A program made the translations under genes and the position numbers. A stretch of DNA of 64,000 bases from Isoetes taiwanensis. Its lineage: Eukaryota > Streptophyta > Lycopodiopsida > Isoetales > Isoetaceae. Below the pieces are notes generated by a model that did not search any database, was not told the origin of the DNA, and saw only the letters and a program-made list of their open reading frames with translations. Location of the stretch: assembly GCA_021234155.1 (NCBI GenBank), contig JAJEKV010000008.1, positions 10,782,740 through 10,846,739 of the forward strand, written 5' to 3'. Positions 18,390-55,690 of this stretch are shown one piece after another (positions within the stretch are counted from its first letter, which is position 1; each line of letters starts with the position of its first letter).

Positions 18390-19490
18390 GATGAATAAAA
18401 TAAGCTCAAGTAGAAATTAAAGCCAGATATGGAAAAAGAGTGCAGAATCCTTACTGTTACTTGCTCATCCGATTCTTGAGGTTCCTTTAAATAAGAACTC
18501 AGAATCTGCAATGGAGGGAATTAATTTGGAGGGAATTATGGGAGGGAACTTAGATTATCACAAAACATTGGAGGGAAAATTAAACCTGTGGACGAGGATG
18601 AGGCCAGCATATCAATCCAATTTTCCATGCATCTTGACTGTCCATAACCACATGCATGCATGCAGTTCCTAAATAGAAAAAGAGAAAAAAAGCAACTGTA
18701 AGATTTTGTCAAATTTATGAAATACGAAATTCTAATGGCTAAACTTAGCTTCTGTGTTGATTCTGCATAGATTTGGCGCCTTATTTCCCTCCAAAATCGA
18801 TGATCCAGCTTCAAATGTCACCATTCAAGAGCTTTGGAGGTCGCCATTCAAAACCGTAAAGGCATTCTTGAGGATGTTTTCAGATTCGTTGCAGTCTAGC
18901 TAGGCGCCAATGGAATCATAGGATAATCCACTATGGTGTAGGCTAGCTCCATCACAGGACAGAAGGCATGGCGTCGTGCTCCTCCAAGAAACCCTAAAGC
19001 CTTCTCTCAAAACCCTAAAGAGAACGTCCCTGGTTCGTTGTGGCAGAGCGGGAACCCTAACGGTTGTTAGAGGTTACTGTCTCACGCGTGTGCAGGTTAC
19101 CGTCAATTGGGGGGTTAATTAGAAGAAATGGCTTTAGCCCACCTTCTAGGATCAATAGGATTGAATGGGGTCTAGGCCTAGAACAGTGTGGGATAAACTT
19201 TAAAAACCTAACAAGTATATTTCCTGTAAAATTTAAGTTAGGCAGAAGGAGCTTATGAAAATCTAGATTTCATCCGAAAAAATATAAAGAAACCCACAAT
19301 TGACCGGAAAACTTCTTGCAATTTTTTTTCCTTGTCAGAAATTTCGATTTGAGCAGGTAGGATGCTAGGTTTCCTAGGAATTTGGCATACACTGATCTAG
19401 AACACATCAAAACGATGCCCACATCCTCTTTAAAATCCCCCCATAAAAAAACCCTTGAAAATCCCTTTTTCGTGGAATGGACATGATTTT
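18390..19490. other. Upstream region of the pogo-like gene
   Basis: TTGGAGGGAA recurs at about 18513, 18528, 18541 and 18570, with its complement TTTCCCTCCA at about 18786. The GGAGGGAA cluster could be subterminal sites of the element, but this is not demonstrated. AAACCCTAAAG occurs twice near 18990-19020. No other gene is seen. Confidence 0.35.
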
Positions 19491-35925: not shown

Positions 35926-38105
35926 TATTATCTAACTGGCCAGAAATAGCCAAAATGCTAAGTGCTAGTGTACATACCATGCTCCCAGGCAAAGTGAATT
36001 CCTGCTGGGTAGTGAATTTTGCTTTTAGTGGCGAATTTTCGTGAAGTACGAATTTATAGTGTTTTTTGAATTTTGTCCACGAATGTTAGGTAGGCTACGT
36101 GGCCTTAAAAAATAGGGAGATATTCGCCCGGAGTTGATGGAAAATAAACCCCACAAATTCGTCGGTTGATCTACGGTGGAAGAGGTCTATATTCGCCCCA
36201 AATTTATAGGTTCTTGCATCTGGTCTCTACGATTCGCCGTGAGATGTGCACCTTTTGCAACTGAACACCTACGAGTTGCTGTCAGGTAAGCGCCATTGGC
36301 GCAAATCTTTTGCTCTATCGATTCATATTACCTATTTGCTAGACATTTTGTAATGCTCTTTTGAATTCGAATTTCATTCTTCTCACATTTGCTTGCTTGA
36401 ACAGCTTTCTTATATGGATTGCATTGCAAAATAATTTAGCCAGCTCTTTGGTCTTGAACAAGACCAACGATACAGCAGAATAGGTGGCCTCCAATGGCCT
36501 TTAAATGAGCATTCGGTTTTGGAAGGCTTACATAATCTCGAGCCACTTTGTTTTGAAGAGCAAGCCATGAGCCTGAAATTTGAGGTACTGTTAAACGCAT
36601 TTTGCCATTATACAGTATATTGAATGCTTCCATTTGCTTGGAATGTGGTGAATTTCTTCAGTTTGGTATTGTTCAGTTTGCTTGCAACATGGTTTATTGA
36701 TTTTGAAATTGGATGTCAACATGTTGCAAATTTCTACAAATAACTTCTAGGTGGAATCGGGCTTTAAATCCAGAACTAGTACTGACTGAGCTTAAGTATC
36801 AGAAAATTTTGTAGCATTGCCATGGCAGAAAAATCTGTGCAGCAGAACTCTGCCAGTATTGCTAATCTGCCTATGAATTAGTGGTGAATTAGCAATGTTT
36901 ATTTGCTTGATTCTTGTGATTCATTAGCAAGTTCTTATGATGTTCTGTATTTGGTTTTTGTTTTCAGATTCTATGTTGGTGCTGCAAAGCTGTTGTAGGA
37001 TATATGTTCTTGCAAATGGTCCTCAACATTTTGTCTCTTGTAGCAGGCCCTTGCAAGAAAGAGAGCTCTAAAATGAGATGGGTTGTGTTTCTGTTTGACC
37101 AAGTAAGAGTTACTAGATGCAGTTCGAATCCGTCCAAAATTGCCAGTCCTTTGCATAATTCGAATTGTTGGTTTTCTGCATATGTGAAATTGCAATTTGA
37201 ATCATAGATTGACATACATGGACTCAAAAAAGCTCCCTGAATTACCTCTTAAAGCTCCCTGAATTACCTTTTAGAGGAAAGTACATATGTGATCCTGATT
37301 CCAAAATTGTAGACCTCATTCTTCTCTGATTCTCTCCCTCTCCTTTGCACTTTGGGACTCTTGCAAATAGTGCATGTTTTTTGTAGATCTGATTTTTGAC
37401 AGGATTTTCAGTTATTAGAAATTTGAGGCCCATAAGGATATTCCAATCATGTTTGAGGATTCCATAAGGATATTTGAGGCAGTCTGGGCATTCTCAAGTT
37501 TCTAGCAGCAGGGACAAACTTGTGGTACAACAACGGGTAAACTTTCAGCTGGGATTTAAAGAACACTGAGTTTCTAAATATGAATGTTATGTATTGGTAT
37601 CTTTGTGCAAAACCATCAGGAAGTGTTGGTGGCCTGGGAACCAAGCAAAAAGTCATATAGAAGTACAAACACTGCACCAGCTTCTTATGCTTCAAGCATC
37701 TTATGCTGTTTACAGTAGGAAATGCGATTGAATGCTGATTTGCAGCTGATTTACAGTTTAAGTTTACAGTGCAGCTGATTGAATGCTGATTTGCATCGCT
37801 GATTTACAGTTTACAGTGCGAATTGAAGCCTTTGGATGTATTTCAGCTCAGATATTGCATATTATCTTGAGGTAACTTTTTAGCATTAACCGTTAACTTC
37901 TTTGAATACATTGCATTCAATTTTTTTCCTCGTTTATTGAAGAGATAGAATGTATTTAAATCTGGCAATTGCAGCAGATTGATGTATAAGACTGCATCAT
38001 TATTGCTCAAGCAACTAGATACCAATTTCTGTTTTTTTTCTTGCTTATCTCTCTATGTGCAATAACATAATATTTTCATGATCAACTGACCCATTCATTT
38101 AAGTA
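35926..38105 (+). other. Upstream region of the hAT gene
   Basis: A possible non-coding leader ends at a consensus donor CAG/GTAAGC near 36276. The rest is AT-rich with a local duplication (GCTGATTTACAGTTTA) near 37745-37815. The 5' end of the hAT element was not resolved. Confidence 0.35.
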
Positions 38106-40459
38106 ATGGACAAAGCAAATCAAACGCGAGATATACGTTCCTTTTTTGGTGGTATCCAAATAGTATCAAGCAGCAGTAGAGACGATGAAGCACCATCTCA
38201 TCATGTAGGTGGAAATGACACAACAGACTTTCCTCCTTACTCAAATGCAAATCATGTTCCAGTGCCTTTGGATGTACCCTCTACAGCAATAGATAGTCAA
38301 GAGACCTCTCCAGTGAATGTAGCCACAAAGAAGGGGAAGAAGAGGAAACACCAAGATAGTACTCTTGAGAATGTGACAGTGAAAAAAGGGAAGAAGAGAA
38401 AAAGCTTTGAATGGGATGAGGGAAGAACTTTTCAAATAGATTGGGTTAAAAGGTTTCCATTCATAGAGCCCGTGTATCCACAAAATGGTGAGATGCCTAA
38501 AGTTGCTCATTGCACAGTCTGCTCTTGGAAACGTGGAGCTGATTGTGAAGCTGGACACAATTGAAAAGCATACTGGGAAGGTGTATGAAAAGAAAGTTGT
38601 CGATGGCAAGGAGGAACGTGTAACAAGATGGAAATCAGCAGAAGAGTGCTTTCATCTTAAGAATGTGGAATTATATGAGAAGAATGTGTTGTATAAGGAG
38701 CAAGCTGCAGGTCCAACAATTGTAAGCTTTGTTGAGCAATTCGTGGACAAGAGTTTGAAAATGAAATTGGTGCAATTGCAATCCGTGTTTGATATTCTGA
38801 AACGTGGAAGACCCATGATGGACTACCCAAAACTAAAGGATCTCTTTTCACCAAGGTATTCCAAATTTTCCTCAATCTCATTGGTCTAGGAGTAGTGGCT
38901 GGGAATTTGCTAAAGTGTTGGATCAAGTAATTAGAGATAATTTACGTGAAGCTATAAGTAATTGTGATTATTTTGCAATATCATTGGATGAAGCTAGTGC
39001 TAATGATCACACAGCATGGGTTTGTATGACTATTTACCATGTGAAGGCACATGTGAGACAAGCGGAATTTGTTTATCTCACAAGATTAGAATCAGAGGCT
39101 ACAGCCGAGACCTTATTTGAAGTTGTTAAAGAGAACTTGTTTACTTTTTTGGGATTGTCTATTGATGATGTTGCTAGAAAGTTGGTTTGTATTGGGGTAG
39201 ATGGAGCACCAGTCATGCAAGGAAACCGCAATGGATTATGCATAAAAATTCAAATGGCTCTTGCTCCATACATGCTGGCAATCCATTGCATGGTGCACAG
39301 ATTGAACCTTGCTTTTCATGTTATTGACAATTATGATTGTGTGGCAAAGGTGGAAGATCTTGTAAATACAACCAATGAATTCTTTTGTCGCAGCAACAAA
39401 AGGTAAAGTCGAAAGTGATCTTCATGACATTATCATTATTTTCTTATGTTGTTGTGGTGTCTTTCAGATATAATCTATTCAAATAAAGATAGCCAAGGGG
39501 CTCACAAAAGGAAATAAGATTCTAAAAAACGTGGAAACAAGATGGATCTCTTTATATTCCCCAGCAAAATGTTTATTGGAGGAGTACCCAGCATTGGTTG
39601 CGCTTATGGAGCAATTAGCATCACAAAAATCCAGTGAAGCAGACAAGCCAATTGAAATGCTTGCTCGTCTGACAAATATTGAGACATTGCTAACTTTAGC
39701 AGGTATTTTTTATTTTCTTGTTTATTTATGTTTGAGAATTTATTTGGTGACTTTAATGAATGTGGAATTTTTCAAAATATATGTTGGAATATAGGCATTC
39801 TGCCTATGCTGGCTGAAATTAACAAGCTCACCAAGTTTGCACAAGAAAGAACTTTGTATACTGAGGAATATGCAAGAGCAAGGAAGTTATCATGTTCGGC
39901 TCTTGATGGTTTGTACTCTTCTTGTACTGAAGTACCATATTGCAAGGAGAAGTTCCACTTGTGGCACAAGCTAGTCAATATAGACAGTGCAAATAGTAGT
40001 AGTTTTTTGACATACGATGACAAGGATACAATTTGCGTGAAAGCACGTTCCCAACTTGTGCAGGTAAAGTCAATTAACACTTTTTTTGTTTATTTGCTTA
40101 TGCTTATGTCTAATTTATCCTATATTATAAAATTTTAATGTATGTCTGTCTTCAACGATGCCCTAAATTGGATGGTTTGGATTTTTTTGGCCACGTGGCA
40201 TCATCTCCACTTTTCTATTCTATTCTATTCTATTCCAACTTACCTTTCTTTAGGGTTTCTCCTTGACGGCAGCAGGTGCTTCCGAGGGGAGCTATCGGGC
40301 AAAGTTTTTAGCTATGGATACCAGACATTGAAGATGGTTGTGTTGGCTTTAGGGTGTTGAATCAAATCAGAAGAACCATGATCTCGCAGCATCTTCCGGC
40401 ATTGAAATCTCAGCTTTAGCATTCTGGAAGCGGCCAAGAACGATCTGTAAAGGAGGGTT

Positions 40460-40983
40460 GCATGTTACTTATGGAGATGATATTTTGTAGCTTTTGCAAC
40501 CAAGAGCATGCAAGATCTATGTTAAATGGGTATGTGATGATATTTTTCGTTCATTCTTTTGTACAGAGTTAGCCTTTGGGAATAATCATCTATTGAACTA
40601 TTTCGGTTGTCCCTTAAGCAGATCAGCTAAGTAATATGTTGAGATATATTGAGACCTCATTGCAATCACCTGACACCAAATATACATCGCTTAAAAATGA
40701 TGGGAAATCTAAATTGGTCAATTCATCTATTGCTGGTAGAAACTCAGCACGCAGTACCAGTAAGAGGAAAAAAGTCTGTGGCATCAAAGCATGCCCCCAC
40801 CTAGCATGGTAGGTACAATGAAGTTTGATCTGTCTACTTTTGGTGAGCTTGATCCTCTGTATTTGCAATTTTGAAGGTGCTTATATTCTCTCCATGTCTG
40901 GTTGCTATTGTGCAATGCATTGACCATAAATTGAGCTTTTATTTTCCAGCCAATGAGTTTAAAGACATGGCAAATTGGGGTAA
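40460..40983 (+). pseudogene. Possible TIFY/JAZ gene fragment captured by the Helitron
   Basis: Near 40468 a frame reads GLHVTYGDDIL, which could be a decayed TIFY motif (usual form TIFYGG.V). At 40951, after a TTTATTTTCCAG acceptor, an exon reads PANEFKDMANW up to a GTAAG donor at 40980. JAZ genes often have an exon boundary just before a PADKAK segment. Plus-strand sequence at about 50022-50173, on the other side of the nested element, reads RARLASFLHGKEA and then PPYR, resembling the Jas motif (SLARFLEKRKER then PY). Each match is weak; the order and spacing make it worth recording. Confidence 0.3.
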
Positions 40984-41084
40984 GCTTGCTTTTAAAACAA
41001 GGTTTAAAATGAAACGCACTTATTTAAGAAGTGCGTTTGAAAGATTCCTTTATAAAAATTGGAAACTTGAAAAAAATGGACAAA

Positions 41085-42229
41085 ATAGGGAGCAAAATAG
41101 ATTGTTGAGCAAATAGCATTCGAAATACCCCAAAAAAAGCAACATTTTTGAAGCCTTTTCATTTTTTAAGAAGGGCAAAAAAAAAAAAAGCTTGTTTTAA
41201 GGAGAAAGACATTACATTTAAAAACTCATTAAGTATTTGTTGTTGAAAATAGAAGGAAATATAGTTTTGTGTTTTTGCAAGCTTAATATAAGTACTAAGA
41301 AAATCAAACATAGAAAAGAGAAAGAGTCTGAAATCATGAATCAAAAAAAGAATTGTTCTAATTAAGCATTGTTGAAGAGACAAAGTTTTCAGTTGAGAAA
41401 TCTTCATCAAAATATATTAAAATTCGTAACACATAGATTACAATGAAAGATAGTTTAAAATGCTGTCTGTATAAATTTATACGGGAGGTGGCTCTTCCCA
41501 TCCACGGGACTCTCTCTCCCCTTAGGATGGGTCTCTTGCGAGGTTATAATAGCGAGACGCCCCTTCCTCGATTCCAATGGTGGCAGTGCAGTGTCACGCT
41601 TTTTCTCGCTCGGGCACCACAGGGCTCAGATCGGCGAACTCCACCTCCTCATTTCTTCTTCCCCGTAAGTGGAGGGCTGGATTTCAGATATGTGCCTTTT
41701 ACATCGCCAAACACCATTTTTGCTCCCAATTCCTCGCGTTTTCATCAGGAAAGGATTCACAAGAGCTTATCCCGGTCCCCGATGAAACTTATTTTGTCCG
41801 GGTCTATGTCGACGGAGACAACATTGCGCCCGCTTAAGGGCTTAAACTGGCCGGGTGCTCGAGCCGGAAAATGCGTCTAAGATCCGGTCCCGTCGGCGAA
41901 AACCATGTATCAAATTATTTATAAGTATTTTGTGGCCGATAATGGGACACCCGCGGCCTTGTCATTGTGTGGGTCTCTTAATTTTTGCAAAACCGCCGGG
42001 AACTGAAACGCATTGCAGGGAGGAGTCTTTTCATTCTGCGTATTAAAGTGAACCATGGTTTTTTTGGCGTCTGCGCTGTAAAACCCTATGTGAAAGTGCT
42101 CGAAACAACTTACTAAGCGCGGACCACCACCATGACCTTTAACGTTTGTTTTAAGCCCGCCAAAAAAGACACAACAATGAAATATTAGTAAAATAAAAAC
42201 AAGGAAAATAAGTTAGCTCAGTAGTGTGG
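41085..42229. other. Left interior of the TIR element
   Basis: A single copy of the palindrome (CTGTATAAATTTATACGG) lies at 41467-41484. Overlapping plus-strand open stretches at 41443-41880 and 41577-41837 (the latter with ETYFVRVYVDGDN) have no recognised family. Confidence 0.4.
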
Positions 42230-42391
42230 CGGTATAAATTTATACCAGGGTTGCCTTGCGGTATAAATTTATACCAGGGTTGCCTTGCGGTATAAATTTA
42301 TACCGCTGGCCGCAGTCGTATAAATTTATCTGAACATTGCCTTGCTATATAAATTTAAACCTTAGGGCGGTTGTGGTATAAATTTATACCG
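42230..42391. repeat. Palindrome array 1 (6 sites)
   Basis: Perfect or near copies of CGGTATAAATTTATACCG begin at 42230, 42259 and 42288 (period 29, spacer close to AGGGTTGCCTTG); degenerate copies lie at about 42317, 42344 and 42374. The array lies just past a minus-strand donor GGTAAGCTT at 42431, in a presumed intron or 3' region of the minus-strand gene. Confidence 0.9.
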
Positions 42392-43487
42392 TGGAGTTAC
42401 TAAAAAGAAAAGCGTTAAATGTTAAGCTTACCAAATGCAGTTTTCAAAGCCGGCATTACAGACAGCTCCCATAGGTTTAAGCACCGACATTGTTTGTAGG
42501 TCCGAATGGAAAATAATGACCCTCCGGTTAGCGAGATAAGGTGACTTCCTTTTAGGCCTTCCAAAAAGAGTGGACTTGCACGCGTGCGTGAAAGCCTCCT
42601 CGTCAAAAGCTACCGTCCTTAATTTTGAAACCATAGGGAATATCGCAATGCATAATGTGAAGTTACGCTTCTCCAAAAGTGTCCCCAGCCCTGCGGCAGT
42701 CACCCTCAACAACTCAGTACATGCAAATCCTGACCAAACGTTGTAAATCTTTCATAAGAAGTGTCAAAGTCGCTTAGTGGCGACCTCCTTTCCCCTCGCT
42801 CGATTGCCTTAAGTCTTTGCCTCTCTTCCTTGGCCCTACTGAACCGGGTTTAAAAATCCAAATGGGAGCCCCTTTTTTGTTGTTCAGAAGAATATTGTGA
42901 GAAAAAAGGCACAAACACGTAACATATTTTTAGCAAAACTTACCCGACCACTAAAGTTAACAAATAAGTGCTCTCTAATAATACTATCGGTGGTACAACT
43001 TGGGTAGAGAAGCTTGCACTCCTCCCAGTCCTCAAGGTTTAGTTTGCTTCATTAACTTCGGCTACCGGTGTAACAATGTCTTTCTCGACCGCAAAGAGAA
43101 ACATGTTGTAAGACCGAGAAAATGTAGAAGAAAGACGGCATTGCAAATGTGGCTTACGCCTTAGCTTCCTTGGCCATTTCGTCTAATGTAAATTCCTTTG
43201 GCCACGACTTTTTCCAAAAGGCTTAACAAAAATTTCTTTGCTTTTTAATCCCTCAGAATCGCGTCCGTGGTACAATGCTCATATTTTTCTGTTTTAATTC
43301 TCCACCCTTTTTTGGTTTTTTCCCTGCGGAGCTGGCTTGCTCTTTAAGCTCACCATCTTCGAACATACAAAAAATTCTTTCTTGAAGATCCCACACCTGT
43401 AAATGGACAAACGCCATTAGTTTAGTGTTGCTTAGCGTAAGAGAATATGTTGCAGTCTACTTTCTAAACACGCATGGTGTGTAGTCA

Positions 43488-43758
43488 CGGTATAAATTTA
43501 TACCGTCCCTAGTCGCGGTATAAATTTATACCGTGCCTAGTCGCGGTATAAATTTATACCGTGCCCGGCCACGGTATAAATTTATACCGTGCCCGGCCAC
43601 GGTATAAATTTATACCGCGATTCAGGCACGCGGTATAAATTTATACCGCGATTAGGGGGTATAAATTTATACTGCGTCGCCACCAGTATAAATTTATACA
43701 GCGACTAGGCACGGTATAAATTTATACAGTGGCCCCAAGACAATATAAATTTATACCG
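43488..43758. repeat. Palindrome array 2 (10 sites)
   Basis: Sites begin at 43488, 43516, 43544, 43572, 43600, 43631, about 43658, 43684, 43712 and 43741. The first five are perfect with an exact 28-bp period and 10-bp spacers (TCCCTAGTCG, TGCCTAGTCG, TGCCCGGCCA twice). The later ones are looser and some end in CAG instead of CCG. The array lies wholly inside a minus-strand intron bounded by GTAAGA (43822) and TTTACAG (43397). Confidence 0.95.
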
Positions 43759-44820
43759 TAGGGTAAGGCACTTGTAAACACGCTAAACACTACAAAACAT
43801 AGAAAGAAGAGCGACTTCTTACTTGACCATCTCTCGAATGCCGGTGAAAAGTAGTTATCGTATTGTTTTACCGCCATAATGGGCTTCTTATCATAGTCAT
43901 AGCTGAGGCAAAGACTCTGTCACGCTTGGGCTTCTCGAAGCCCCGCAGCTTGTTCTTTTGCTTTTTTAAAATCCTCTCCATACATTTGTTTAAATTCCAT
44001 ACTCACTCGCGCATGAAACGGATCTTGTCTATTAAACTCATTTTTAATCAAGTCATTGTCGCCGAGATTATGACTCACGGCAATGACTTTTGCTTCTTCA
44101 TCCTGTTACACCAACGTATATATGTGCTTCTACGCTCTTCCACACGCCGTTCGGCTTTCCTCTTTTGCTAGTTCTTTCCCTTGCCTTGTAACTATGTGTG
44201 CCTCCAAGAACGTAGTATGTGTAATCTTCAAGTCGACCTTCTTGTAATCTTTTAGTTGGTTGCATCGACTGGCGTCCACCATAACAACTAGTGGCGACAC
44301 ATGGGCATGAGGATTTCTTCTCATTCTTTGTTTCAGTATAGCCACATGTGCCGCATACAGCTTCCGGACCTGTAGCACTCTGACCCCATCTTCATTTTTA
44401 GGTGGCCTCTTAATGGTGCTCAATGTCAAAGAAATAGTTTGCTTTAGCAGTTTAGTGTCATTCACCCGCTTGAGAATAGCACTTGATTTATCTGCAGGCT
44501 TCACAACAATATCTGCTCCAGGGGCCTTCTGAAGAGCTTCTGTTGACTCCTCTATAGTCAAAGCCTTTGTGCCTCTAGATTTCTTTTTTGTAGGAGCCTG
44601 TGTATCTACTACGAGGGAATGCTTTCTACCCTTTCCCTTTGTTACCACTGGTTCCTCTTCCTCTTCTTCTTCTACTTCCTCGTCCTTCTCTTCAAACTCT
44701 TCGATAGGAGTCGGGTACCAGAGACCTTTGACCAACTTTGTTTCTTTCAAGAAAGCACAACCCGACATTAAAATGTCCACTATATCCTCGTGAATGCGAG
44801 GGGTTAAGTTAGGAAGATGA

Positions 44821-44837
44821 CGGTATAAATTTATACG
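44821..44837. repeat. Solitary palindrome site
   Basis: CGGTATAAATTTATACG lies just past a minus-strand donor GTAAGTATT at 44860. In the minus-strand reading frame it also reads through as RINLYR, so it may be intronic or coding. Confidence 0.85.
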
Positions 44838-45457
44838 TAAAGACACTAAACAATACTTACATGGCCACTCTTGTAATTGTCGACCCACGTACTCTTGCAC
44901 ATCTTTGGGTTTGCACATGCTTATTCGAAGCATTTTACTTTCAAGAACGTAGAAGACTTCCCCCTTGTCATGCATGCACTTCATTAAGATTTCATCATCG
45001 ACCTCTGTAGCAATAAGGTTGATAATTTCGCCGGCAGGGTAATAATCGTCACTCTTGTACTTGCCCTTCCCTGATTGATGACACAAGTAAAGGTACGCCT
45101 CAGAGTGGGTTTGCTCTCTCTTGCACCCCCGTGGACGCATACCACGCCCCGGTCTTTCGGCCAGTATGTTCGTGGCTCTATTGGTGCGCCTTTGATGACC
45201 GGCCCTTGTTTACAAACTTGATCCCGGGGCTGGAAAAAGCGTAAAGAAGGCCATTTTATGCAAGAAACAGAACCCTTTTTCGACCTTTTGTACCATAAAA
45301 ACAAGTAAAATAGAGGCTAAAAAGAGCATAAAATCTACACTAAATTATCACTTTATTTGTGTTATTTAAGCTTAAAACGCAAGAATATTACTGAAATTTT
45401 AAGGTTTGCGACACTTCTTTAAGCACTAGACACCAAGATTCCAAAATGGTTCTGGAT

Positions 45458-45911
45458 CGGTATAAATTTATACCGCTCGAGCACGAGCGGTATAAATTTA
45501 TACCGAACCAGAACACAGTCGGTATAAATTTATACCGCAGGTGCTCGAGCGGTATAAATTTATACCGTTCCAGAACACAGTCGGTATAAATTTATACCGC
45601 AGGTGCTCGAGCGGTATAAATTTATACCGTTCCAGAACACAGTCGGTATAAATTTATACCGCAGGTGCTCGAGCGGTATAAATTTATACCGACTGTGTTC
45701 TGGAACGGTATAAATTTATACCGCTCGAGCACCTGCGGTATAAATTTATACCGATCCAGAACTATATCGGTATAAATTTATACCGACTGTGTTCTGGAAC
45801 GGTATAAATTTATACCGCTCGTGCTCGAGCGGTATAAATTTATACCGTTCCAGAACACAGTCGGTATAAATTTATACCGATCCAGAACCATATCGGTATA
45901 AAGTTATACCG
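45458..45911. repeat. Palindrome array 3 (15 sites, two alternating spacers)
   Basis: Fifteen 18-mers begin at 45458, 45488, 45520, 45550, 45582, 45612, 45644, 45674, 45706, 45736, 45768, 45800, 45830, 45862 and 45894; all are perfect except the last (one mismatch). Steps are 30 or 32 bp. The 12-bp spacer is CAGGTGCTCGAG and variants; the 14-bp spacer is TTCCAGAACACAGT and variants. Spacers left of 45674 read mainly in one orientation; to the right several read as their complements, so the array is a large imperfect mirror. It lies within the intron 45230-45977 of the minus-strand gene. Confidence 0.97.
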
Positions 45912-46181
45912 TAAGCGCTTACACTCTAGCAGATTAAAACAAAAGAGAAACTAGAACAGTACGGGTAGTAGACTTACGTGGCCATGACAGTATAGACCCG
46001 CGTATAGACGTTCCAGAGAGCAAATAAGGGGGGGTATATAAGCCGCACCGCGAGCGCCTTCGACTCCGAGCTGCGTATATAGAAAATAGGGTGGCCGGCG
46101 CCCGGCTTAAGTACCTCTGCTAAGTGCCGCTTCATATAGCGCTTCTCCATAAAGTTTTCAATACAAGTGTCTGTGAGTTTT

Positions 46182-46322
46182 CGTATAAATTTATACCGCT
46201 CTGTTCTATGTTGCCCTCCTCTGTATAAATTTATACCATCTCCCAGATAAATTTATATCTGACCGCGCCTTTAAGTTTTTCTTCCCAGTATAAATTTAAA
46301 CCCACTGTATAAATTTATACCG
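46182..46322. repeat. Palindrome array 4 (5 sites)
   Basis: Sites near 46182, 46221, 46244, 46286 and 46305 include the variants CTGTATAAATTTATACCG and CAGATAAATTTATATCTG. All lie in or at the edge of the first predicted intron (46320-46171). The rightmost site itself supplies the donor G/GTATAAA. Confidence 0.85.
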
Positions 46323-46599
46323 TATGGCTCGAGAGAAAAGAACCGCAGAGCCTCAACTCCTCGTTCGCGGGCTTCCTCCCCGCAATGGCTTTCACACCTC
46401 CTCACCGGACACCGTGAAGTAGCCACGTAATATTCTACATCCGACATTCCAACACCCAGCTCTGTTGAGTTTGCTCCAGCAAGACCACCTCGGCTTCCAC
46501 CACGGTTCAATTTACTCCACCACAACCTTGCTCACGAGCGCCGTCCGCCCCCACCAATGCGTTTCACCCCGCCTCGGGCTAGAGAGGTCGGGACTACCT

Positions 46600-48950
46600 C
46601 CTCCAATTCATTTTAGCACGCCCATAGTCCACCAGAGGCTCCCTCCCGAGGCAAATCACACCAACTCCATCCATTTCGCTAAATGGTACTACAACAAGTG
46701 GGGAGTCGCCAATGACACGCAACTCCCCGTGGTTCTCGACGACACTTCGGGAGCTGGTCAACTACGCCACCAGCCTCGATTATTTTTCCCGCAGAGAGGG
46801 AAAGCACCTCCCCCGTGCCTTGCCCACATCAAACCTCTCAAAGATCTACAAGTACACCTCATGTTGATCTCTCGGGACTTAAGAAACACCTCATGTTGAT
46901 GTCTCGGGACGAGGACCTACCAAAGCCACAAGACTCCATGTTCAATTCAAAGCCCCCCCGCAAGTAAAAATCTTGCGTAACTTACACAAGACAAAGATGT
47001 ACAACCGTTAGAAGAAAGAAACTCATGGACGAGGCTCACTTGCGGGCAACACATACAAAGCAATTGTTGTTCTCAACGTTGTTTGCTTAAGATTGGACTA
47101 AAGGAATTGAGGTTGCTTCGTGATAGTTACTGGTTCAATGACTCGCTAGACCAAAGGGGCTACTTAGCCTTCAATATTAGGCCGGATGATGGTGAGAAGT
47201 TTACTTACACAACTGGTGGCCACACCGCCCCGTCAAACGGCCTTCAAATTGATTCATGCTTTAGGCACAGACGACTTGACCGCTTTGAAGAAAAGGTTTG
47301 ACAAGAATCCGTGCATCAATGACTACCGCCATTCGGGAGGCATAACCGTAATTCATGCTCTTCAATGTGTTTCTGGATGGAAGGTTTCTTTAAGGAGTCT
47401 TGTGAGAAACTCCCTAACAGCCCTATGTACCACTTGAGTGACAATTTCACCTAAAACAAGAAGTCTACGATAATTATAAGGAGATGTGTGTTGAGGTTGG
47501 AGAACGCTTTGTTCCGCTACTCTTACTTTAATCGTGGTTCGGAAAAAAAGAGTTTTCTCGTGTGGCCATTCCTAGAAAGCATAGGATGTCTGTTTGTGCT
47601 ACATGCTCAATTAAAAGCTCAGAGACAAAATGCAAGGACACTTCACACTAAAAAGTAAGCTTCCGGGACGTGTTCTTGCCTAGTTCTACTTAAAAGTAGG
47701 TTCTTTCCTAAACATGTTTTCCTTTCGGATGCATTGAAGGAGAAACCGAACAAGCAATGAGAACAACAATCTTTGGAAAGGAGAAAATTGACAAAACATA
47801 GGAAGAAAGTAACTGGAACAACCACTCAACTACATATCGGTTGTTATTGATGGAATGGACCGTAAGAAGACCACCCTACCACATTTTGTCAATGTGCCTA
47901 AGGATCTTCTTGAAGAAGATTTCATACATCCGCATGTTGTTGGTGCTATGGTATTTAATGGAAAACTATCTTGCAAGGCATTTTTGAATTATCCAAACAT
48001 TCATGCTGATCCAAATCTCACTATCACAATATTGAATAAGCTTCTTTCCAATCTAGAACATATACGCGGCCGGTTCAGATCTTGACTAGATAACACGACA
48101 AGGGAAAATAAGAATCAGGCGTTGTTTGCTTACTGTGCTATGCTAGTAGAGAAACAAATCTTCAAGAAGGTGAAGATTGGTTTCCTGCTTGTTGGTCATA
48201 CACACGACCAAATTGATCAGATGTTCAGTAGGTTCTCTAAACGCCTTGCTCGAAAAAAAAGCTCTAAGCCCCGCCAGCCATGATTGAGGTCATCCAAGAT
48301 TCCTACAATCCCTCGCCCGGACATCGAAGTTATTGGAAGAAACTTATGATTTCAAGGAATGGATTTTTCAAGAGATCAACTAGGTCACCGTGCTATTGAG
48401 CCCTTGAGAAACATTACATTCCAAAGATCGATCAAAATTTCACTTGTAGATGGCAAGGCCATCTTACAAGGAAAGAAATATGCCACATCCTTGCAGTGGC
48501 GACCAAGCAGTTGTGTATTCAATTCATTCGCAACATCCCCAATACTAGTTCCATGCTCTCTGCAGAGCAAATGCCTCTAAAAAGCTTGAAAGAAATCACA
48601 AAGAGTAAAAAGGAGGGAAGAGCATTTGACTCAAATAAATCATTGGATTGTATTGAGACAAGTATTCAAGTCTGCTCTAACCACTTTGGGGAGGCAGATG
48701 CTTTATGGTGGCCTCAATTTTTTTCGAAGAACGTGACATGTTGCAAGCTTCATTACAAGGTCGAAGACCAGTTACATTCAACTGGCCATCTAGGCAAACC
48801 CTCCCTGTGCAAGTTGAGAATCAAGAGGAACATGTAGAGATATTGGCTAGCTCGGATGAAGATGACAGAGTCATGTACACCGCCCTAGACGCACAAACAC
48901 AACAAGTTGCTTTCGAGTATCCGTTCGATCTCCGAGATTGAGAAAAGGAA
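46600..48950 (+). pseudogene. DUF7869-like transposase remnant
   Basis: The clearest part is 47850-48260: VIDGMDRKKTTLPHF, FNGKLSCKAFLNYP, a stop, LDNTTRENKNQALFAYCAML and GFLLVGHTHDQIDQMFSRF. Widespread eukaryotic transposon proteins, known to me from memory as DUF7869-type, share DGMD, DN..RENKN and the GHTHEDIDQMFSRF block, which may hold the acidic catalytic residues. Upstream fragments (NDYRHSGG near 47310, SDALKEKPNKQ near 47730) and downstream ones (DGKAILQGKKYATS near 48450, YGGLNFFEERD near 48700) fit the same protein. Several stops and frame changes make it non-functional. It points away from the minus-strand gene. Confidence 0.65.
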
Positions 48951-49794
48951 TGCTCATAGCTGTCCCGGTGATAATGATGAGTCCGGGAAGCCGCTCGCTA
49001 GCTAAAGTACTGGAGGTAACAAGAGAGGATGGAATTCCCACTCAATTAAAAGTGCAATTGGATGAGAACGATCGCGCCAATGCTTTCAAAGTGGGAGTTA
49101 TACTTTGGAGATGGTAAAACAGAGTGGGAAAGAGAGCAAAGTCCAAAGCAAGTAATGCTTTGTCATAGATCTATCTGAAGTGAAGGTTCTTGCATATGAC
49201 TTTGTTCGACCGCCGCTAATAAGTTACGTATGGTCACTCAAACTTTAATAAGGTCAAGATGTGGATTAGACAAACAAGCCAAAAGGTGGCCAAAAAGATG
49301 ATGATGAAGACTCACTTGTAGACAAGTGAGGAAGAAGATCGTTCGAAAGTACATCCGGTCTTTGAGAGTGAAGCTGAGGATGAAGGCTCGAGTGATCAGG
49401 GAATAAATGAGTCAGAGGATGAGATGCATCCTGATCTTGCTGCAAAATGTAAGTTTGTCCGATGACTCGAACATGTAAAGAACAGAAAGTGCAGGTGATG
49501 ATTGTCTGTCAAAATATCCTATATTTTTGACAATTTTGTTCATAATTTTGTACAATTTTCACAACCTTGAATATATCACTTCTTTGTCACTCTACTACCC
49601 TTGCTATTTTTTTTATTGCCCCTTTTTTGCTACACTTTATAAAAGTAACTATTTTTTGTTCTAGTTTAGGAGGATGAAAATTGCTATTTAAAATTTTTGC
49701 ACGAAAGTTATGTTCAATCAACCCCTCAAAAATGGTACCTAAATTACTTAAATTGTCACACCTGTCACAAAAAAATCTTAAAAATGGACTTTTT
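48951..49794. other. Right interior of the TIR element
   Basis: Degenerate sequence follows the transposase remnant, with no intact open frame. Acidic-residue codons (GAGGATGAG) near 49380-49430 may be its C-terminus. Confidence 0.35.
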
Positions 49795-50434
49795 TAAGGG
49801 AATTTTAGGGAATCTTTCAAAGATTCCCTTTGAAGTGCGTTTCCAGCAAATAAGTGCGTTTCATTTTAAACTTTGTTTTAAATTTGTTGCTGGGCAATTT
49901 TCTTTACCATGCAGCTAGATGTTTTTTTCTAAGTCTTCCTTTTTGGATGGATGTAGGATGGATGGATGGATGGATATCCAATTGAACTCATCATTCTTCT
50001 TGCATAACAAAGTTTTACATGCAACCCCTATGCCCCTGCGGCCCACATCTAGAGCTAGGTTAGCATCATTTCTCCACGGTAAAGAAGCCATGGAAATGAT
50101 TATGGTCGTGCTTCCACCTTATCGAATATTGCTACAAATTGGAGAAGATAGAACCAGAATTGTCTACCAGTGATGTAAGAAGACAATAAAGCTTCACATC
50201 AGGTTAGCATTTGCTGCAGTTCGAAAAGCTGAGCTAACCAATAACAAATGAGATAATATGTTGTAATATATATGATATAATGAATGATGGTATAGCACTT
50301 TATCATTCTCTTATGATGTATCTTAATACAACAGAGTCAAAATCAATCCTTTGTTATGCGAACAAACTAACAATGAATGTACTACCAATGAGTGTGCTGC
50401 CAAGAAATCTATTTGTATATCTTATTTCCGCTTT

Positions 50435-50576
50435 CATTTCTTTTCTATGCAAGCAGAGAGTCGATTGGAATTGATAGGCGAAATGAACAATTTAAGTAGC
50501 TAATTCATTTCTTTTCTATACAAGTAGAGAATCGATTGGAATTGATAGGCGAAATGAACAATTTAAGTAGCTAATA
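50435..50576 (+). repeat. 71-bp tandem duplication in the Helitron
   Basis: Copies start at 50435 and 50506, with only a few differences. They include GTCGATTGGAATTGATAGGC-type sequence. Confidence 0.8.
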
Positions 50577-51594
50577 CATGGCAGAAGAAATAAAGATTTC
50601 TACCTTGGTACTAAGAGCTTCTAAAAGAATTACATTGCAGTCCTCTGCGGAGACCTTAAGACGTTCTGGCAAAGGTCCCTTCTTTTGTTCAAATACATAC
50701 TCTACTTTTCCTTTCCAGGAACTTGACTTTGCAATTTACGGAAGAATATCCTAACAAGCCCCTACAGTGCAGTTTATCTCAAAGATTCACTCGAATAGTA
50801 AGTTATATTAGGGCTTTTGATGCATGAGCATTTGACACTATATGGAAGCATTCCTAGAGGACGAAATTGCCTCTTTATCAGTACTACAAGCTATTCTTTG
50901 AGTACTTTTGCATTATTAATGTTCTCTTTTCTTATCATTGGCTTATCATTTACAAGTTCCACACCACATGCCCATCAAGCTTAGCAAACTTAACTTCTAA
51001 CATGTTACAAAACACTACAGACATGTACATGAAATTCATTTAGCGGCTTCCAACGATTATAGAACCCACATCTCTATATTTTTAGATGGGCAGACTCTTA
51101 ACAATAGAGCAAGGATGCACCATAAAACAAATGGGCATATATAGGCAACTTTAATGCCCCTTCAACGCAGTTTCATATCAACGAAAAAAAGCACATAGAA
51201 CATAAGGGGATAAAAATTAATCACAAAATGGATATACAACAAACCCATTGCACAACAAACATAACAATTTTTTGCTTTTTACATGAACTTCGCAATCATC
51301 TCACTATGTTTTTATGCCCTAGAGGAAGAAAATGCTGATTTTAAAAATGTTATTTGAACAAAGAGTGAGCTGAGGTTGAAGTTTCCTTTATCTTTGGGAC
51401 TTCTTGCCACAATAAAATTTTTGCCATTGTTGTTCTTCATTTATTGTGCGTACCATTCTATTCAATTGCATTCTTTCAAACTGCCAAAAAATTTGGCCAA
51501 TAAGACATACACTAATATCTATAGTGCAGCTTTCTCAGGACAACGTCTCAACATATGGTCATCGTTAATATAGATTTTTTTTTTAGAATATTTC
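50577..51594. other. Helitron interior, nothing recognised
   Basis: AT-rich sequence with no supported gene. Confidence 0.4.
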
Positions 51595-52560: not shown

Positions 52561-55500
52561 ATGGATTTGGTTGAGCGGTATGCTGCCGAATTTCAAGCAA
52601 AGTTTGGGGATTCAGATCCGGAACTTATAGCAAAAGAGCTGGGATTCGATCTTGAAGCTGATATACCAGAAATCTTGTTACCAGAAATTGAGGCATCGAG
52701 TGTTGTGGTTGGAAAAGAATTTTCAATTTTAGGAGAGCAGCCCTTGGTTCTTCCTTGTGATAATGTAGTTTCCCTCAGAATTGCAAAAGAAAGTCCTCAC
52801 TGGCCATAATCAAGTTGTCCATGTATTCAAGTGAAATGCAAATGTATCTCACCAAATACGACTTTGCGGTGAAAATAATGTCTGCCAAAAGAAGGATGCA
52901 GAGGAAAAGAAGAGCAGAAAGATTAGCACTTGAATCTGCATCTAGTCCTCACAGATTGACCACTCGAACCAAACAAAAGTTGGCAAAAGGTATTTTGGAT
53001 AATATTCATAGTGTATGCAAGAATTTATTTCAAGATGATAGGGATGAAATCTTGGCAAGAACAGGTCAGGGATTGCCAAAAATTGGCATAATGGGACACA
53101 AGGAATTGTTTGCAGTTAGGCAAGTTGTTGATAATGTGAAGAGCAGTCTTCAAACTAACAAACTAAGAAGGAACCAGGATATGACACAAGCGAGGTCATC
53201 TACTCTTGTAATGGCTGTTAATAATGCTAGCAATAAGTCTGGAGTTGCAAAGACTTTAAACATAAAGAGAAGGACTGTGTATGCTGCTTTGGACAAGAGG
53301 AAAGCAGCTGCAATTGGTGGGCCCTGGTCCATGTTTAAGGGAAAGGATAGAAGTGATAAGCTCTCTTTTAAAGATCGAGAGAAGATATATAGTTACCGAG
53401 TTTGTAACACAAGAGTATCTCCCAACAAGAAACAAGTTGTGAAGCTTAGGAGAACCAATGAAGGAGTCAAGAATTTCAAGCCATATAGGTTGCATCCCAT
53501 CCACTTTTTGGAAGAATCTCAGGTTAGTGAACTTTGATATTAGTTTTGAAGTTCCTAGTATTGTCAATTAACTGCTATATTTGAAGATTTGAAGTGCAAA
53601 TGTTATAAAAGTTTTTTTTGTGTTGGCTTGACGTGCAGGTTGTCTTCTACAAAAAGTTTCAGAAACAGAATCCTGACATCAAAGTAGGTTTGAGAAGGTT
53701 TGAGTGCTTGAAACCTTTGTTTGTTAGGAGACTAAAAGATCGTGAAACTTGCATGTGCATTTATCACATGAAGATGGAATTTGTGAGACAGGCATTGAAT
53801 AGAATTAGAAGAGACATAAACACACATGGAACAAATTGTAAGTGCAAGTGTTCAATTTGTGGTGCTGGAGATCTTTGTGAAGCAAAGGAGAAGACTTTCA
53901 ATAGTGTTAGTGAATTATGGAGGTCAACGGTGAAGGCAGATGAGGATCTTTGGCACAAAGCAAATTGTCTACAACTTGATTGCAGCTCATGTGGAATAAG
54001 AAAATTCAAAAGATGTCCAAGGGAGAAGAGTGCTATTCGGACAATCGATTGGAAGAATTTTGAGAAGGTATGTACATGTTTAATTCATTGTTTTTGCATT
54101 TGTATTCAATATTTGAAATAACATGTAACTTATTTCAACTAAATCTGAAACTATGAATCTGAGACAATAAAAAGGAATGTGGGAAAGGATGGCTCCATCA
54201 AAGAGAAGACCAAGGATATCATGAGGCTAGTCTACAAAACAACAACATTGAAAGAATTCATGTCATGCTGAATCTGTCATGAAGCAGTTCATTCCACATA
54301 ATTACACAGCTAGGTGGCAAGCAGAACAATTTAAAAACTGTCTTCAAACATTTCCAAAAGGTACTGTGGTTTCTGTTATAGATTTTGCCGAGAATTTCTC
54401 CTTCAAAGTTCAACAGGAAGTCCAAAGTATGCATTGGCATAATGACCAATGTTCCATCCTAGTTCATATCACTTACAGACATGACCAAGAATCTGAAATC
54501 CCACACATCAAGATTGGTGACAGAAAAATAGTGAAAGAGACACATTTCTACATATCGGACGATAAGAAACATGACAGTTTATTTGTCCAGCATTGTTTGC
54601 AAAACCATCACGAGTTTTTGTTGAGCAGGGGAGTTAATTTGGCAAAACATGTGTTCTGGTCTGATGGATGTGCCTCCCAGTTCAAATCTTCTAGAGCTTT
54701 CTACTTCTTAGGAAGATTCTACAAGCTCAAGGGGATTAAGTTGCAGTGGAACTTTTTTGCCACATCACATGGTAAAGGGGAGCATGACGGGGCTGGAGCT
54801 GTCATCAAAAGAATATTGACGAGTGAAATGCTTAAAAGGGACAGCACACCCTTAAGGAATTCTGAAGATGTTGTCAACTTTCTCAATTCTTATTTCAGCT
54901 GCAAACAAACTTCAAAGGAATGCAACTATTAGTTTTATTCCATATTGTTGAGTAATTTTATATTGAAATTATTTCTTACACTCAAAACCGTTTATTTTAG
55001 GTTCTTCTGGCTTGTTAAGTTGGGTGATGTGAACAGAGATTTGCCATATGAATGTGATACTTTAGCAGGTACAAAAAAGATTCACACAATTAGGCCTTAC
55101 TGCCAAGACAAGCCAACTGAAATGGCACATAGGCATCTATCATGCTTTTGTAGATTTTGTTGGAGAGAATTATGGTCTAAATGTAGACATGCATCTCGGC
55201 TTGGAGATTATTCATTGTCAACCCTGATTCCTATGGTTTTTGAGCAGGAATCTCCTGTCCACCATGTACAGTATGAGGGGGACAATCAATGGAAAGCAGA
55301 AATGGTTGAAGTAGGTGATAACTTTGTTGTGAATGCAGAGGAAGGAAATGATGAGAATGTGGATTTCTGGATAATCAAGTGCACTGAACCTAAACACATT
55401 GTCCAGCATGCATTTAAGAACTATTGGGGCTCTAAGTTCAACAGGCTGGAGGTTGTCTTATCAGGTAAGTATTACAAGTTCATCGGAGATGGTAAGTATG

Positions 55501-55690
55501 AGTTGTTAGACAATATGCCTGATGTAACTTGCTATACACACCTTGTAGTTTGTGCAAAGGTTGAATTGCAGGCTGCACATGGTGAGAAGGGTGTGTTCTG
55601 CCTCTCAGATGATGCACATTAGCAGATTATTGAGTATTTGCCTCCTCCCTCATCCGAGGCACTCGCTGCCAGCTCTAGTACAGAGGAGGA
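52561..55690 (+). pseudogene. Multi-exon transposase-like gene, probably one frameshift from intact
   Basis: An acidic N-terminus (MDLVERYAAEFQAKFGD) ends near 52809. A basic helical part follows (52815-53524) with SNKSGVAKTLNIKRRTVYAAL, a helix-turn-helix-like segment, ending at a GT donor. The next exon (53639-54066) has LKPLFVRRLKDRETC and cysteine pairs (CKCKCSICGAGDLC, CLQLDCSSCG). Then comes the probable core (54279-54920): FIPHNYTARWQAEQF, HVFWSDGCASQFKSSRAFYF and TSHGKGEHDGAGAVIKR. After a TTTATTTTAG acceptor the C-terminal part (55010-55690) begins RFFWLVKLGD. Near 54265 a single-base change breaks the LKEFMS...ESVMKQF region, as the copy at 25 kb shows. The family occurs as uncharacterised proteins in plants; its SDG/GKGE.DGAGA blocks suggest an RNase H-like nuclease, which is an inference. 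Confidence 0.6.

Follow-up and report, generated by a model that had tools for sequence, protein, structure and literature searches.

The window analysed here is a stretch of 64,000 nucleotides from the lycopod Isoetes taiwanensis (assembly GCA_021234155.1, contig JAJEKV010000008.1, positions 10,782,740 to 10,846,739 of the forward strand), and it contains a DNA transposon, assigned here to family A, with two divergently transcribed genes: on the minus strand a predicted methyltransferase gene, and on the plus strand a gene for a protein with a DUF7869 domain. An 18-bp perfect palindrome, CGGTATAAATTTATACCG, is repeated through the non-coding parts of the methyltransferase half, and we report where its copies sit, how well they are kept, how the palindrome changes between sister families of the element and which element protein may read it. 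All evidence on the element comes from this one genome.

The element, its palindromes and its genes

The initial annotation of the window had proposed a transposon at this place, and an end search bears it out, with inverted ends at 40996 and 49877 and TTAA on each side (Table 1). Between 41467 and 46322 the window holds 35 matches to CGGTATAAATTTATACCG at up to three mismatches, 21 of them exact, where 0.01 would be expected by chance and none of 100 shuffles reached 35. The annotation's count of about 38 copies agrees with the 36 matches at up to four mismatches, and the 38 inner 12-mers (TATAAATTTATA) at up to one mismatch, found in 40001-51000; at up to three mismatches there was no match anywhere else in the 64 kb, as it had also said, and its positions were correct except that 46182 is really 46181. 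All sites lie within the left 60% of the window element, and 46323-49877 is free of any match at up to three mismatches. The 18-bp palindrome is real, but the part that is conserved is the inner 14 bp, GTAT-AAATTT-ATAC, which carries TATAAAT on both strands. The outer CG pair is frequent in the arrays (310 of 544 outer dinucleotides, TG being next with 60) and weaker at lone sites (11 copies), and in an extended profile, biased within the core by the choice of sites on that core, information falls outside GTAT..ATAC. The window arrays score both as tandem repeats and as strongly inverted-repetitive, and the cluster at 42230..42391 comprises four sites at up to three mismatches of the 18-mer or six at up to two of the 14-mer. 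Rfam gave no match in the window at the gathering score, and nothing was found in the open-access literature for the inner 12-mer as a palindrome.

That the palindrome is confined to one transposon, as first annotated, is true within the window, whilst the genome (1.66 Gb) contains 4,415 exact copies of CGGTATAAATTTATACCG (reversed control 0), along with 955 + 974 element ends at up to two mismatches. We fetched seven palindrome clusters, all from contigs for which no exact end was listed (clusters on C4 and C18 were left out), and all seven lie in the element or its non-autonomous derivative. L014 and L017 have kilobases of similarity to the element, with ends beyond the slice; L011, L013, L015 and L016 are derivatives of 2.17-2.2 kb with the ends of the full element; L012 shows one end only, its palindromes being at distances that match the derivatives. 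This co-location, which the annotation had put forward for checking, is not a census, and within that scope it speaks against an unrelated dispersed satellite. Complete derivatives, L010 included, have 7-10 sites each at up to four mismatches. Derivative L013 has in common with the window element the palindromes, about 65 bp of the left end, about 180 bp of the right end and several short pieces, one of them 58 bp from exon 1, and in compared pairs the derivatives are 11-26% diverged, yet their palindromes are still exact. Absence of the palindrome from other copies was likewise looked for: every full-length family A copy read has it, with 19-36 sites at up to four mismatches, but none was present in the 1.4-kb slices of L027 and L030, which belong to the family A DUF7869 clade. 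Of the 13 loci that show both ends, 12 are flanked by a 4-bp target duplication, read by eye (TTAA, ACAA, TTCA, TGCA, TGAA, TATA, TCTA twice, TGTA, AAAT, ATAG and AATC), and so is L019 (TTAA); L015, with both ends present, has no 4-bp duplication.

By its sequence, the C-terminal part of the minus-strand gene is a beta-class DNA methyltransferase of bacterial type. The L019 and L020 exons homologous to its last region match PF01555 (N6_N4_Mtase; E 1.5e-15 and 1.3e-15, and 3e-16 for exon-joined L019), and their scores of 58-60 bits against a curated cut-off of 26.7 place them in that profile family. The best solved relative of this part is CcrM (E 6.5e-10, or 6.5e-11 with a profile), and hhalign against seven phage ParB-methyltransferases gave a probability of 98.4% (E 1e-14); in phage and viral collections only distant methyltransferases were matched. 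Beta-class enzymes are defined by motif IV, (D/N/S)PP(Y/F), standing before motif I, FxGxG. The motif order here is the same, with IV before I; motif IV reads D[IL]PY, its second position not being P, and DLPY occurs in phage enzymes. D[IL]PYGF and DAFSG[ST]GTT are present in families A, B and C. The region upstream of the methyltransferase may be ParB-like, a resemblance that is weakly supported, and the L020 frame corresponding to exon 2 has no Pfam match. Neither gene is intact in the window copy, and at other places the genome has copies that are more open. Between L019 and L020 the last methyltransferase exon has dN 0.114 and dS of about 3, and synonymous sites across the methyltransferase half are near saturation (pS 0.74-0.87, dN 0.11-0.13), which points to strong coding constraint. 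The DUF7869 dS of the same pair is 0.16, and this low value beside a saturated methyltransferase half with the same 14-mer palindrome suggests recombination between lineages that kept one palindrome. A separate frame of 280 residues adjoining the element in L003 (7685-8524, plus strand) has a weak N6_N4_Mtase-like stretch (E 0.014) and perhaps derives from another methyltransferase-bearing element.

The plus-strand protein is probably the transposase. DUF7869 (PF25273) matches in the window lie within 47813-48283 (E 4.6e-05 and 2.6e-27), and a longer open frame in L014 scores E 1.9e-52, its 178 bits against a cut-off of 26 placing it in the family. IDGMDQKK, QLDNTTRENKNQ and GHTHDQIDQMFSRFS are invariant in six DUF7869 sequences from four families. 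A rough count gives about 9,900 DUF7869 candidates in the genome, and all 150 that were scored lay above the cut-off. The DUF7869 profile matched none of the solved structures, the open-access literature yielded nothing for DUF7869, and viral contigs held no confirmed relatives of it or of the ParB-like exon.

Table 1. Features of the family A element in the window (positions of the window; exons are predicted).
Feature	Positions	Strand	Basis
Left target-site duplication, TTAA	40992..40995	.	by eye
Family A DNA transposon, entire (8,882 bp; ends AACAARGTTTAAAATGAAACGCACTTATTT)	40996..49877	.	end search; limits from duplication by eye
Single palindrome, 3' end of methyltransferase gene	41467..41484	.	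mismatch search; anchored copies
Last exon region, covering motifs VIII to I plus an acidic tail; window copy degraded	41500..42170 (approximate)	-	homologous L019 and L020 exons match PF01555
Palindrome cluster, intron between motif-IV and motif-VIII methyltransferase exons	42230..42391	.	mismatch search, anchor map
Exon region, WDLQE up to methyltransferase motif IV; may hold further small introns	42432..43396	-	limits by hand
Array of 10 palindromes, intron after ParB-like exon	43488..43758	.	mismatch search, anchor map
Predicted exon 3, with acidic stretch and ParB-like region; window copy has a broken frame	43823..44786	-	limits by hand
Single palindrome, intron 2	44821..44838	.	mismatch search; anchored copies
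Predicted exon 2, N-terminal domain	44861..45229	-	limits by hand
Array of 15 palindromes, 30-32 bp spacing, intron 1	45458..45911	.	mismatch search, repeat scoring
Predicted exon 1, ATG 46150, GTAAGT donor 45977	45978..46150	-	read by hand
Palindrome cluster, divergent promoter, non-repetitive spacers	46181..46322	.	mismatch search, promoter alignment
DUF7869 gene, candidate transposase, in pieces in window copy	46323..49450	+	profile matches
Right target-site duplication, TTAA	49878..49881	.	by eye

The palindromes keep their places and outlast their flanks

Slots for the palindromes were mapped by coding anchors in the window copy and in L018-L021, and the same non-coding slots are occupied in all five: the promoter and intron 1, intron 2 with one site, the intron after the ParB-like exon with an array, the interval between methyltransferase motifs IV and VIII with a cluster, and the region after the methyltransferase gene with one or two sites. 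L001-L003 have clusters at matching positions. In the copies read out, GT..AG boundaries flank the sites and the introns are so predicted; in the window copy the acceptor before the motif-VIII exon is unrecognisable.

The palindromes are conserved beyond the surrounding element sequence. For each of the two lone sites the place was sought by the flanks alone in 14 other copies. The 3' site is present in 10 of 10 anchored copies, its 14-mer being 97.1% intact where flank identity is 83.8%; for the intron-2 site, present in 13 of 13, the corresponding values are 96.7% and 78.6%. These means omit the copies without an anchored pair, four of 14 for the 3' site (in two of which the slices stop short of the 3' end) and one of 14 for intron 2. 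At the promoter, the sites are separated by unrelated spacers of varying length, with constant cores, and L019 and L020 share an identical 14-mer despite the near-saturated synonymous sites of their methyltransferase halves.

Variant sites also occur at the promoter. In an alignment of 15 copies a near-palindrome, GTAAACTTTTAC, replaces one site in L003, L006, L007 and L019, with ATAAACTTTTAC at that position in L008, while L002 repeatedly shows the variant AGATAAATTTAT; these variants are possible sub-specificities.

Sister families carry other palindromes in the same frame

For a survey of sister families, 24 loci were hand-picked for spread from the DUF7869 candidates, four at 10 kb and twenty as 1.4-kb slices, and two full loci behind slices were also read. 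A family palindrome was present in 21 of the 24. The centre is AAATTT in eight loci (family A), TCCGGA in six (family B: L022, L023, L025, L037, L043 and, through its full locus L047, L038), GAATTC in two (family C) and GCGCGC in five (family D, with near copies only in L039). A fifth palindrome suspected in L038 was a degenerate repeat, and L047 has a family B array elsewhere. The four families share the frame TAT-N6-ATA with a palindromic centre; as the next base outside it, three of them have G..C and the remaining one C..G. Exact counts in the genome were 2585 for the 18-mer GTGTATTCCGGAATACAC (the 4,415 for CGGTATAAATTTATACCG is likewise an 18-mer count) and 1551 for the 14-mer CTATGCGCGCATAG, with reversed controls of 0, and 64 for the 14-mer GTATGAATTCATAC (reversed 11); the control 14-mer palindrome GTATCAATTGATAC occurs four times, as does its reverse.

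The palindromes of families B and D, TATTCCGGAATA and TATGCGCGCATA, lie in regions corresponding to the family A sites. The intron that follows FQLAFR(D/S)G and precedes (V/I)W(D/E)LQ has AAATTT sites in L018 and L020, TCCGGA sites in L023 and GAATTC sites in L024, so that three of the four families have palindromes in this intron, the one that follows the ParB-like exon. When 27 DUF7869 domains were placed on a tree, the GCGCGC loci formed one clade and the GAATTC loci another, the AAATTT and TCCGGA types each filled a clade together with palindrome-less slices (two in A, one in B), and no row had the main palindrome of another clade.

Family C is low-copy, with a fixed layout of exact GAATTC sites in at least four copies (L024; C919, C1034, C1037, C1060): three sites spaced by about 115 bp, a fourth about 2.3 kb beyond them and a fifth after another 0.58 kb. 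Both L024 and L026 mix the GAATTC sites with AAATTT sites and with half-changed sites such as GTATGAATTTATAC, which stand beside whole ones; the mixture is perhaps an intermediate in a specificity switch.

Other frames in the window lie outside the element. Open frames resembling a hAT-type transposase adjoin it directly on the left (38103-40135, plus strand). An 834-residue frame at 15915-18416 (minus strand), with a helix-turn-helix followed by a DDE-like region, resembles a pogo/Tigger-type transposase, and several successive frames at 52764-55619 (plus strand), with a HGKGEHDGAGAVIKRIL stretch, perhaps encode another DNA-transposon protein.

Candidate readers of the palindromes

We infer that the palindromes are self-recognition sites for a dimeric element protein, likeliest the methyltransferase, serving element-specific activation or anti-silencing, and put the probability of this reading at roughly 0.55. 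Among the roles first suggested for them in the initial annotation (binding sites for an element protein, bidirectional TATA-like sites, recombination or cruciform sites), binding fits best because the lone sites outlast their flanks, the mapped family A copies use the same non-coding slots, the derivatives keep the sites and the palindromes change with the DUF7869 clades; the suggestion as a whole is thus supported in part. Perfect palindromes that are kept as sequence, both in arrays and singly and in several non-coding slots, have the form expected of sites for a dimeric DNA-binding protein of the element. An element-encoded dimer would bind the 14-bp palindrome and so locate its own copies and their non-autonomous relatives, the likeliest binder being the ParB-like/beta-class methyltransferase of the minus strand. 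Clustering of the sites would make binding cooperative and element-specific, and the divergent promoter would stay active either by methylation of the sites, N6-adenine being the likelier base, or by the blocking of host silencing. The methyltransferase is favoured as the reader because in family A the sites fill its introns, promoter and 3' end, because the right 3.5 kb of the window copy is free of them and because its enzyme class reads short palindromes, as RsrI and CcrM do. The D[IL]PY motif suggests adenine as the methylated base.

Several observations pull the other way. Three of the 24 surveyed loci (L027, L030 and L045) have no family palindrome in the slice, the family C intron between motifs IV and VIII has no site, and family D sites also occur in the DUF7869 half (L046, at 6766, 6870, 8694 and 9078), the only family D methyltransferase read, that of L046, being frame-broken. 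The GCGCGC centre of family D is without adenine, so that a methylated adenine would there have to sit in the TAT/ATA arms. The ParB-like region matched no ParB family in Pfam and no ParB chain among solved structures; hhalign gave it a probability of 0.1% with a single phage protein and of 6% with a set of seven, and the ParB-like PHROG family phrog_1033 was reached by the family C protein (E 6.7e-6), the family B protein being unlisted. The label count on the DUF7869 tree, 6 palindrome changes against 13.9 when shuffled, speaks for the reading, but near-copies in the tree inflate this difference, and co-inheritance alone would also make palindromes follow the tree.

On a rival reading the palindromes are sites that the DUF7869 transposase binds and that transposition requires in cis, comparable to the TNPA motifs in CACTA elements, with the methyltransferase doing another job. 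We regard this as unlikely. In its favour, the derivatives retain the ends, the palindromes and little else, palindrome type tracks the DUF7869 tree, and the presence of family D sites in both halves is what binding by a transposase would lead one to expect. The tree, however, cannot tell which protein reads the site, because these families also include the methyltransferase gene and the palindrome is co-inherited with both proteins. In CACTA (En/Spm) elements the TNPA sites are many and subterminal at both ends, TNPA also affects promoter methylation, the duplication is 3 bp and the termini read CACTA. The likeness to the present element lies in many short motif copies bound by an element-encoded protein, binding being here a candidate property; the differences are that TNPA sites are subterminal and not 14-bp palindromes, and that our element has a 4-bp duplication and ends starting AACAA. 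Family A sites are neither subterminal nor symmetric: in the window, 471 bp separate the left end from the first site, whereas about 3.5 kb lie between the last site and the right end. We do not prefer the CACTA-like reading because most family A sites fill introns of the methyltransferase gene and the right 3.5 kb of the window copy is empty. Sola DNA transposons have a 4-bp duplication too, and are compared with the element on that character only (12 of 13 loci plus L019).

Host transcription factors or TATA-type promoter and enhancer sites, used for expression of the element, seem to us improbable. One cluster does lie in the divergent promoter and the family A core has its TATAAAT on both strands, but most window sites are intronic and the seven fetched clusters, with no wider census outside elements, are all in elements. 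In the corresponding regions the palindromes of families B and D are not of TATA type, and for that reason one host factor cannot explain all of them; the proposal of bidirectional TATA-like sites does not generalise, and we reject the TATA reading. About equally improbable are cruciform, recombination or RNA-hairpin sites at which self-complementarity itself matters, for instance through double-stranded RNA from inverted intronic arrays. The inverted repetitiveness of the arrays would suit such a role, but it is the sequence and not symmetry alone that is conserved within family A, which this explanation leaves unaccounted for, and in family C half-changed sites persist next to whole ones. 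Extrusion is poor for short perfect palindromes that lack a loop, and sites in a promoter are not necessarily transcribed. Functionless intronic tandem repeats produced by slippage could account for the variation in site number from copy to copy and for the repeat scores of the window arrays. We nevertheless think slippage very improbable given the unrelated spacers at the promoter, the conservation of lone sites above their flanks, and the occurrence of four palindromes, built on a single frame, in four families, three of which have sites in a common intron.

For self-recognition by an element protein the closest working model, by analogy, is VANDAL/VANC, in which the repeated motifs of VANDAL introns and upstream regions are bound by VANC, which lifts silencing, as described in the accessible parts of PMC5735166 and PMC10398659. 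Both are DNA transposons with family-specific short motifs as tandem repeats in their own introns and upstream regions, which is the arrangement the analogy turns on, and in both the motif and the element protein change together, motif density in VANDALs being peculiar to the family (PMC5735166, in the same parts). The VANC21 motif has 9 bp, a single orientation and no palindromic symmetry, unlike the 14-bp palindrome here, and those parts of PMC5735166 do not describe VANC as a DNA methyltransferase, whereas our element carries one. The Pfam matches of the element proteins were DUF7869 and PF01555, with no MULE or VANC-type family among them.

Methyltransferase-bearing transposons as such are already in print, to go by the accessible parts of PMC5890265: cytosine-C5 methyltransferases occur in retrotransposons of Symbiodinium and charophytes, DNA transposons with DNMT in marine viruses are cited there, and the C5 enzymes are CG-specific where activity was seen. 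These too are eukaryotic or viral mobile elements with a DNA methyltransferase, but the present enzyme is of the bacterial-type beta class (N6A/N4C) and sits in a DNA transposon with candidate cognate sites. In phage ParB-methyltransferase fusions (XPP58267.1, QBX13764.1) a beta-class methyltransferase likewise stands behind a ParB-like part, but identity is about 24-27% in the best rows, the ParB part is weakly alignable and there is no transposon. In the open-access literature we found no transposon-encoded DNA methyltransferase with ParB and no match for transposons with an N6-adenine methyltransferase.

A bolder form of the self-recognition reading, which we hold tentatively as a possibility, is that each family re-specialised a captured phage-type methyltransferase to mark its own palindromes with 6mA or 4mC. 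The specificity of the enzyme would then be the palindrome itself, with constant TAT/ATA arms and a family-specific 6-bp centre like a restriction site. The mark would be a bacterial-type base that the host silencing machinery does not write, tagging the element's own DNA and keeping the element and its gene-less derivatives active, and new families would arise when enzyme specificity and palindrome switch together.

One genome thus offers several natural versions of one putative self-recognition code, with shared intron and protein architecture and different palindromes, and opens to direct test the joint change of specificity in a transposon protein and the motif it targets, a question raised by VANDAL/VANC. 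Should the methyltransferase prove active, the families would provide methyltransferases adapted to eukaryotes, with a candidate specificity of 14 bp. The element would then be a case of a DNA transposon writing a bacterial-type base at its own addresses within a eukaryote, and it would bear on whether 6mA or 4mC has real functions in eukaryotes.

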